Origin: Agromyces mediolanus
GTDB lineage: Bacteria > Actinomycetota > Actinomycetes > Actinomycetales > Microbacteriaceae
NCBI RefSeq assembly: GCF_023715325.1
Contig: NZ_JAMBNX010000001.1
Coordinates: 62,001-126,000, forward strand
Direction of reading: 5' to 3'
Length of the DNA: 64,000 nucleotides
Part shown: positions 34,616 through 36,028 of the stretch, one piece after another
Position numbering within the stretch: the first letter of the stretch is position 1
Layout: each line of letters opens with the position of its first letter
The notes under the pieces: generated by a model
What the model was told of the DNA's origin: nothing
Databases searched by the model: none
The model's input: only the letters and a program-made list of their open reading frames with translations
Translations under genes and position numbers: made by a program

Positions 34616-35938
34616 CTACCCGATCCGCTCTCGTCGGCCGAGGATGCCCTGCGGCCGGAAGAGGAGCACCAGAATCAGCACGACGAGCGCGCTGACGAAC
34701 TTCATGTCGGAGGGCAGCCAGAGCGTCGAGAGCTCGACGAAGATGCCCACGATGAGCGAACCGATCAGGGCGCCGAACGCCGTGCCGAGACCGCCCAGGG
34801 TGACCGCGGCGAACACGAGCAGCAGGATCTGGAAGCCCATGTCCCAGCTGACGCCCGGTCGGTAGTACGCCCAGAGGATGCCGCTCAGGCCCGCGAGGCC
34901 GGCACCGAGCACCCACACGATCCGGATGACCCGGTCGACGTCGATGCCGCTCGTGGCGGCGAGGCTCGCGTTGTCCGCGACGGCGCGGGTCGCCTTGCCG
35001 ATGCGCGTGCGCATCAGCAGGAACGCGACGCCGAGCAGGACCACGACGCTGACGCCCATGCTGACCATGTCGATCCAGGAGAGCGAGATCGGCCCGAGCT
35101 GGACGTCGGCGGGCGAGGCGCCCGGCAGCTGCCTCGTGGCTCCGCCGTAGAAGAACTGGTACGTGTACCGCATGGCGAGCGAGAGCCCGATGCTCACGAT
35201 CATGAGCTGGATGACTCCGACCCCGCGTCTTCGCAATGGTTTCCAGATCACCCCGTCGAGCGACCAGCCGAGCCCGAGGCTCAGCAGCAGCGCGACGATG
35301 ATCGCGATCCAGACGGGGAAGCCGAGGTCGCTCGAGAAGGTCAGCAGCATGAGCGCGCCGAAGGTGATCATCTCGGAGTGGGCGAAGTTGCTGAGCCCGG
35401 TGGTGCCGTAGATGAGCGAGAGCCCGATCGCGGCGAGGGCGAGCAGCAAGCCGAAGTTCACGCCGTTCGCCAGCCGGTTCAGCAGCTGGTCGAAGAACGA
35501 GGCGGTCTGCCTCGTGCCTTCGCCGAGGAAGAAGTTCACCGACTTCGTGTTGGTGAGCCCGAACTCCGCGGTGCGCGGGTTCTCTTCGTCCGCTGCGACG
35601 ACGACGCCCTTCGGCAGGGTGTCCTCGTCGAGGGTCACCTCGTAGCTGGCCTTCTCGGGCACGCCGATGCGCCATTTGCCGTCGGCATCCGTCTCGGCGC
35701 TGGCTTTGAAGCCACCGCCCTCGACCGTGATCTCGACACCTTCAAGCGGTTCGTCCTCGTACTGCACATTCCCGAGGAAGAAGTACTCGTACTCTTCGGA
35801 TCCTGTGCCCGTACTCCCAGCCTCCGCCATCGCAGGGGACGCTGCGATGCCGGACAGAGTGAGTGCGGACAGTAGGACTGCGAGGAGTACGAGCCATCTC
35901 CCTGGGGAATGCCGTCGGACTGTTCGCGTGGATTCCAC
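34616..35938 (-). CDS. livH: ABC transporter permease LivH type fused to a secreted N-terminal domain
   Basis: The start at 35938 (GTG, TTGGAGG four bases upstream) gives 440 residues. Residues 1-38 are a signal peptide (LVLLAVLLSALTLSGIAASPAMA, then EA). Residues 40-130 form a hydrophilic domain resembling a carboxypeptidase-regulatory or Ig-like fold (YFFLGNVQYEDEPLEGVEITV, TDADGKWRIGVPEKASYEVTL). The LivH permease follows from about residue 150 with NRLANGVNFGLLLALAAIGLSLIYGTTG-type segments and ends in VLILVLLFRPQGILGRRERIG. Ordinary LivH is about 290-310 residues. The extra domain would face the lipoprotein receptor outside the cell. First gene of livHMGF. Confidence 0.9.
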   Translation of the reverse strand: MESTRTVRRHSPGRWLVLLAVLLSALTLSGIAASPAMAEAGSTGTGSEEYEYFFLGNVQYEDEPLEGVEITVEGGGFKASAETDADGKWRIGVPEKASYEVTLDEDTLPKGVVVAADEENPRTAEFGLTNTKSVNFFLGEGTRQTASFFDQLLNRLANGVNFGLLLALAAIGLSLIYGTTGLSNFAHSEMITFGALMLLTFSSDLGFPVWIAIIVALLLSLGLGWSLDGVIWKPLRRRGVGVIQLMIVSIGLSLAMRYTYQFFYGGATRQLPGASPADVQLGPISLSWIDMVSMGVSVVVLLGVAFLLMRTRIGKATRAVADNASLAATSGIDVDRVIRIVWVLGAGLAGLSGILWAYYRPGVSWDMGFQILLLVFAAVTLGGLGTAFGALIGSLIVGIFVELSTLWLPSDMKFVSALVVLILVLLFRPQGILGRRERIG

Positions 35939-35978
35939 TGCACCTCCAAGGGGTTCCGGAGGTCGTTCGGACCTCCGG
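35939..35978 (-). promoter_or_regulatory. livH leader with alternative Shine-Dalgarno pairing
   Basis: Read on the minus strand, CCGGAGGTC (35978-35970), loop CGAAC and GACCTCCGG (35964-35956) form a perfect 9-bp hairpin. The ACCTCC of its right arm is also complementary to the GGAGGT of the livH Shine-Dalgarno (35947-35942), so two exclusive folds are possible, one free and one sequestering the ribosome-binding site. No known riboswitch class was recognised. Confidence 0.5.
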
Positions 35979-36022
35979 GACCGGTCCTTTCCCGTCGACA
36001 ACGTCGTTGACGGTACGTGCCG

Positions 36023-36028
36023 ATTATG
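36023..36028 (-). promoter_or_regulatory. Candidate livHMGF -10 element (CATAAT)
   Basis: CATAAT on the minus strand differs from TATAAT in one base; the -35 region 17 bases upstream is weak (TGTCGC). Transcription from about 36016 would give a leader of about 78 bases containing the switch-like hairpin. The 306-base gap up to guaB holds nothing else clear on the plus strand except a weak TAACAT at 36159-36164. Confidence 0.35.

Follow-up and report, generated by a model that had tools for sequence, protein, structure and literature searches.

Among the described systems that resemble the region upstream of livH in Agromyces mediolanus are start-site-switch hairpins of the E. coli pyrC type, where the formation of a leader hairpin depends on which start site is used. 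The livH leader differs from them in that its first hairpin (H1) does not cover the Shine-Dalgarno (SD) sequence and in that its two starts are only predicted. A second term of comparison is represented by the RNA targets of ANTAR proteins; according to the portions of the literature covered here, they are marked by A1 and G4 in a hexanucleotide loop, and binding is significantly better with two stem-loops than with a single one (PMC8164766, PMC3369931). PMC8164766 also reports RNAs of this kind from Microbacterium and Cryobacterium, where they precede LacI-type regulators; its main text makes no mention of "branched" or of liv genes. The likeness consists of an H1 hexaloop with A1/G4 on a short stem, placed in the leader of a transport gene; however, the livH leader has one such hairpin, and in Agromyces its loop mostly begins with G. 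As far as the promoter is concerned, the livH region shares with GlnR boxes, as these are presented in the part of PMC10704036 considered, GnnAC-like half-sites that are directly repeated at a spacing of 6 nt, and with the amtB promoters of the family the distance to the -10. It differs from GlnR boxes because the order is GAAAC then GACAC (b-a), without a strong gTnAC in front (PMC10704036), because the second half-site of the window is GACAT, and because the Agromyces repeat overlaps a -10-like CATAAT. Lastly, the livK RNA of Pseudomonadales (RF01744) is, in the part of PMC2864571 considered, a candidate structured RNA also named after a liv gene; it belongs to another lineage, however, and the livH leader has no Rfam match. 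A description of the livH leader was not found among the matches listed in the open-licence literature.

What was analyzed is the promoter of the livHMGF operon together with its 5' leader, a unit conserved across much of the Microbacteriaceae, and it lies in a stretch of 64,000 nucleotides (the window) with the following features.

34616-35938, minus strand: livH, coding for a BPD_transp_2 permease, with a GTG start (sequence reading and domain matches).
35936-35938, minus strand: GTG start codon of livH (direct reading).
35943-35947, minus strand: SD sequence GGAGG of livH (direct reading and Agromyces comparison).
35956-35978, minus strand: H2, a 9-bp hairpin with a 5-nt loop and ACCTCC, the claimed anti-SD, in its 3' arm (reading, fold, and turnover with pairing kept).
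35992-36013, minus strand: H1, the first hairpin, with apex C-GACGTT-G (folds and family comparison).
36010-36015, minus strand: TACCGT, a -10-like TAnnnT element overlapping the 5' arm of H1 (family PWM; amtB-like spacing).
36023-36028, minus strand: CATAAT, a second -10-like element, present in Agromyces and some other genera.
36026-36041, minus strand: GAAAC-N6-GACAT, a GlnR-box-like direct repeat (family comparison).
36063-36074, minus strand: GGATAACAATCG, a conserved block farther upstream of the livH promoter, common to most of the 30 Agromyces loci.

The gene guaB is divergent from livH, with a start probably at 36245, and the other strand of GGATAACAATCG could serve as its -10. The livH start reads GAGGTnCAGTG in all 30 Agromyces loci read. 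In the protein, a signal-peptide-like N-terminus is followed by a CarboxypepD_reg-like stretch (Pfam 26.2 bits, under the 32.3 cut-off) and then by the BPD_transp_2 permease; N-termini of this kind also occur in relatives. A gene for a periplasmic binding protein (Peripla_BP_6; 30383-31783, plus strand) has the opposite orientation and converges with the liv operon. The initial annotation of this DNA had described, before an amino-acid importer operon, a leader that might hold a cis element or a protein-binding site. The position before the liv operon is confirmed, the leader is conserved and structured, with compensatory change, and it may hold a protein-binding site. The minus-strand order that it gave is also correct: CCGGAGGTC (35978-35970), which embeds the upstream GGAGGT, the loop CGAAC, GACCTCCGG (35964-35956), AACCCCTT, GGAGGT (35947-35942), GCA and GTG (35938-35936). 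The perfect 9-bp hairpin it reported (H2) can be read directly and is part of the minimum-energy fold, while H1 (36013-35992) and the promoter elements were absent from that description.

The comparison was carried out at two levels. Within the genus, the LivH search of 60 relatives gave a match in 57, and 30 same-genus loci were read (L001-L030). A covariance model built from 27 Agromyces leaders matched 45 of 60 Agromyces genomes and none of the other 15; in the 30 genomes whose livH locus was compared the match is the livH leader, and three Agromyces genomes carry a second, weak one. At the family level, the model (E 0.01) found a match in 27 of 199 genomes, and the 27 model loci besides the window's own are placed before livH in 17 cases and elsewhere in 10. 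LivH itself was retrieved at E 1e-60 from 144 of the 199 family genomes; the upstream regions fetched were 93 of these family places plus seven from Agromyces with a divergent LivH, 100 altogether. A PWM score of at least 20 reduced 147 upstream regions to 124, L063 being anchored by hand owing to a one-base deletion; dereplication at 65% identity over 60 nt left 76 leaders, in 74 of which an SD was found, lying 40-95 nt from the TA in 71. The LivH tree has 79 rows, including L103 (below the cut-off), L063 and L067, added by hand.

The 135-nt stretch taken as a whole is not more stable than its shuffles (z -0.40), so that only the comparison among relatives can decide whether its hairpins are meaningful. 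In the 27 Agromyces leaders, 83.7% of the H1 and H2 cells are paired against 78.6% in shuffled alignments (0/500), double-change cells number 19 against 9.5 (0/500), and the covariation score was reached by none of 500 shuffles, while slid versions of the same pairing gave at most 52.2% paired cells. Two of the five measures were not above the shuffles in this set: pairs with double change (60/500) and further pair types (196/500). On the raw MAFFT alignment RNAalifold recovered H1 in part and missed every H2 pair, because the arms of H2 slip there. In an alignment-free test leader halves were exchanged among leaders for 300 rounds: the exchange weakened H1 in the 76 dereplicated leaders (z -8.9, 0/300), H2 in 71 leaders (z -5.8, 0/300) and the stem closing just before the SD in the same number (z -3.2, 1/300). 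Among Agromyces leaders the H2 arms vary freely in sequence and G-U pairs are common among the stem variants; the H2 loop and the linker are not conserved among the leaders compared. Some distant genera have instead a compound hairpin after the start, formed by P1 (GACGG/CCGUC), P2 (GCCAG/CUGGC) and a variable P3. Its covariation score was reached by 4 of 500 shuffles in alignment A2, whose 19 look-alike leaders were chosen from 21 listed, so that counts are biased towards its structure, and a one-column slide comes close (0.161 vs 0.182); the short H1 of this selected set shows no covariation on its own. Judging from these sequence comparisons, the leader hairpins are real, their pairing being kept while the sequence changes.

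H1 has nine pairs in many Agromyces and one A-C mismatch in the window. Across the 76 dereplicated leaders, a hexaloop hairpin with a stem of at least four pairs is found at H1 in 46, against 16.1 in shuffles, and is absent from the remaining 30. Its loop carries G4 in 40 of the 46 cases and is closed by C-G in as many; A1 and G4 occur together in 29 of 46, against 6.2% in shuffles. The loop of the window, GACGTT, has G4 and lacks A1, and the Agromyces loop, with mostly G at position 1, can close to a tetraloop. Among the leaders whose loop lies at offset 9-11, 17 of 17 have R1 and G4, whereas reading the same columns in the other leaders gives 46 of 211 (p 5e-11, uncorrected for phylogeny). 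Between leaders the H1 stem is replaced and lengthened, and the tip C-RnnGnn-G moves along with it. The fact that the loop letters travel with the hairpin, and not with the promoter, when the stem lengthens suggests recognition of the hairpin tip, which, on the basis of its sequence, looks like a protein landing site.

H1 thereby resembles one of the two halves of an ANTAR-target RNA. Membership of the dual-hairpin class was rejected, since a second A1/G4 hexaloop hairpin in the ANTAR layout (2-25 nt apart) occurs in 8 of 74 leaders against 9.0 expected and is not above chance. ANTAR proteins are encoded by 197 of the 199 family genomes, with one match in the genome of the window; being nearly universal, they are no evidence by themselves for a partnership, although a partner would be available.

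The analysis of the upstream sequences revealed a family PWM site before livH of the type GAAACA-N5-GACACAA-N7-TAnnGTC. It reaches a score of at least 20 in 124 of 147 regions (30/30 from Agromyces, 17/17 of the RNA-model finds and 77/100 of the others), the best reverse-strand scores being 14.0 and 17.5. The 23 regions lacking it at this score are all among the 100 fetched, and eight of nine named Microbacterium loci also lack it; none of 58 loci outside the Microbacteriaceae, nearly all from Micrococcaceae, reaches 20 in the 600 nt scanned before the match. The GAAAC-N6-GACAC repeat sits 10 nt before the TAnnnT hexamer, whose letters T, A and T carry over 2 bits each. The first half-site is GnnAC in 111 of the 124 leaders and the second in 64, both being strict in 62; that of the window, GACAT, is imperfect. 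In Agromyces and other genera GACACAA is replaced by GACATAAT, which itself looks like a -10. CATAAT or AATAAT is found in 45 of the 111 leaders with a GnnAC first half-site and in 10 of the 13 without it; of the three that have neither, L063 is a CATAAT misread through its deletion. A generic sigma-70 scan reported no promoter at the livH leader. Within the genome the strict promoter pattern matches livH only, and a regulon defined by a looser pattern was rejected, as the two additional sites that it gave showed no connection with nitrogen.

The promoters of amtB offer an internal comparison. In 18 of the 25 examined (L192-L216, out of 30 fetched loci) a GTnAC-N6-G[A/T]AAC box is present, suggesting, at the level of sequence, that a GlnR-like regulator exists in the family; all 18 boxed promoters contain another G[A/T]AA[C/T], whose end is separated from an nAnnnT by 10 nt, with the same spacing as in livH. 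This strict spacing favours TAnnnT as a -10.

TAnnnT and CATAAT imply predicted start sites about 13 nt apart, and the two have very different consequences. A start from TAnnnT falls inside H1, which would then be cut and would not be an RNA hairpin, whereas with a start from CATAAT H1 would stand at the extreme 5' terminus of the mRNA. The sequence comparison supports both: TAnnnT persists in leaders without H1, and where H1 is present its tip is kept in a hairpin frame. A start may also lie downstream of H1, in which case H1, and not H2, would be lost from the RNA. H1 is strong, with a duplex energy not above -8, in 19 of the 24 leaders that have CATAAT/AATAAT, compared with 14 of the other 52 (p 4e-5). 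The 79-row tree requires at least 11 changes of CATAAT; independent pairs gave 3.5 in the same direction, none in the opposite one and 4.5 without difference (median p 0.25), and PGLS gave p 0.031 with full Brownian covariance and 2e-8 at a fitted lambda of 0. The link between CATAAT and H1 is weak once relatedness is counted, and H1 pairing exceeds the swaps also in leaders without CATAAT (z -4.4). Taken alone, the idea that H1 is an RNA hairpin has in our opinion, on comparative grounds, a little over an even chance.

The reading that we prefer, to which we would assign a probability of about 0.37, joins a nitrogen-type promoter, a 5'-terminal H1 probably read by a protein, and an H2 acting as a spacer near the SD. 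A GlnR-type activator would raise livHMGF transcription when nitrogen is short. In the CATAAT lineages, including the window, transcription might start at the GTA before H1 (36016-36014), so that the mRNA would have H1 as its 5' end; the H1 tip might then be read by an RNA-binding protein acting in trans, which would alter translation or decay, an ANTAR-domain regulator being the only candidate reader that can be named, and H2 would be a structural spacer beside the SD. The strict spacing of the amtB promoters (18/18) weakens this full mechanism and strengthens the idea, discussed below, that H1 is not transcribed.

One might object that no reader is required. H1 could be a 5'-terminal hairpin slowing decay, and H2 could keep the C-rich leader off the SD, with neither ligand nor protein involved; this is possible, although we lean against it. 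It fits an H2 without a conserved loop and the point at which pairing ends in the predicted fold of the leader, which lies a median of 3 nt before the SD (5 nt or less in 56 of 71 leaders). It also fits the complementarity to the SD, which for at least 5 nt is below expectation (5 of 71 family leaders vs 13.9%; one-sided p 0.059 for the deficit). However, the tip of H1 is conserved in the hairpin frame, which would be needless for a bare stabilizer, and SD accessibility is not clearly raised, being 0.322 against 0.302 in shuffled leaders (p 0.15) and 0.338 against 0.306 for a shorter transcript (p 0.056). The gain not being significant, an SD-exposure role of the leader was rejected.

A different objection concerns transcription itself: if TAnnnT were the sole -10, H1 would remain untranscribed and its inverted repeat would act in DNA, as an operator or through the geometry of initiation. 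The high information content of T, A and T is in agreement with this, as is their distance of 10 nt from the repeat, like that of nAnnnT in the amtB promoters. Of the 30 leaders that lack a hexaloop H1, 29 also keep strict TAnnnT (as do 46 of 46 with one), as expected of a true -10, even though the anchoring PWM favours these letters. Nevertheless, we regard this explanation as rather doubtful, since from one genus to another the whole stem sequence is exchanged, with pairing and tip retained, unlike what is seen in a protein operator, and since G-U pairs are common among the Agromyces variants; H1 as a fixed DNA operator was rejected because the stems differ so extensively between genera.

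The two starts might also be combined in an RNA switch selected by the start site. The mRNA starting from CATAAT would carry the H1 tip, read by a single-hairpin ANTAR-type or other protein, and the GlnR-activated mRNA starting from TAnnnT, 13 nt downstream, would escape it; we consider this combination unlikely. In some relatives the GACG arm freed by the TAnnnT start could pair with a CGUC just before the SD. This pairing is available in 6 of 19 core leaders and in 9 of 52 others (p 0.21), and CGUC-GACG-CGUC as a general exclusive pairing was rejected for lack of enrichment.

Far less probable is the switch proposed by the initial annotation, in which ACCTCC would alternate between the hairpin and the SD, the two pairings being mutually exclusive. 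The letters permit it in the window, as they do in the two relatives nearest to it, and the pairing of ACCTCC with GGAGGT is possible on paper; however, the match to the SD is no commoner than chance. ACCTCC is found in 3 of 30 Agromyces leaders, namely those of the genome of the window and of the same two relatives, and CCTCC in 7 of 30; in the family, 2 of 71 leaders have at least 6 nt complementary to the SD, close to the 2.6% expected from shuffled leaders. The forced ACCUCC:SD pairing is, moreover, 7.2 kcal/mol above the minimum for a transcript from the TA at 36015 and 5.4 kcal/mol above it for one starting 13 nt further in. Of the pairings for which conservation in relatives was to be sought, that of H2 is conserved and that with the SD is not. 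The switch was therefore rejected, its anti-SD being rare, its complementarity at chance level and its alternative fold energetically worse; as far as the comparison of relatives indicates, the ACCTCC:SD pairing has no part in leader function and is coincidental, being confined to a few close relatives.

A metabolite riboswitch or a leader-peptide attenuator, which the location before an amino-acid importer and a GCCAGAACCC-like segment common to some distant genera might recommend, is highly improbable, since the covariance search of Rfam gave no leader match at gathering, in accord with the initial annotation and leading to the rejection of any known Rfam class (at E 5 the only match, sub-threshold, lies outside the leader, at 36168-36190), and since there is no terminator-like site, no leader ORF conserved by eye, and no conservation of linker and H2 loop.

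A species-specific coincidence is in this way replaced by a family-wide element: the leader of an amino-acid importer carries a conserved hairpin tip, in genomes nearly all of which encode an ANTAR regulator. If H1 is transcribed and bound, it would represent a test case for RNA recognition with one hairpin, and nitrogen-controlled initiation would be coupled to post-initiation control.

Some observations concern loci outside the family. Several of them show, by eye, another hairpin before the SD. The livH leaders of Arthrobacter and other Micrococcaceae (L250, L267, L282, L283) carry their own hairpins before GTGGAGG, as well as GAAACATGCCGCTAGTAACAT and, after it, GTGACACTCGTCACA, which make up an inverted repeat resembling a CRP-type site. 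An Arthrobacter-like LivH with Arthrobacter-like upstream DNA is also present in a contig titled Vibrio cholerae strain 35D (L300), where it is probably due to contamination.
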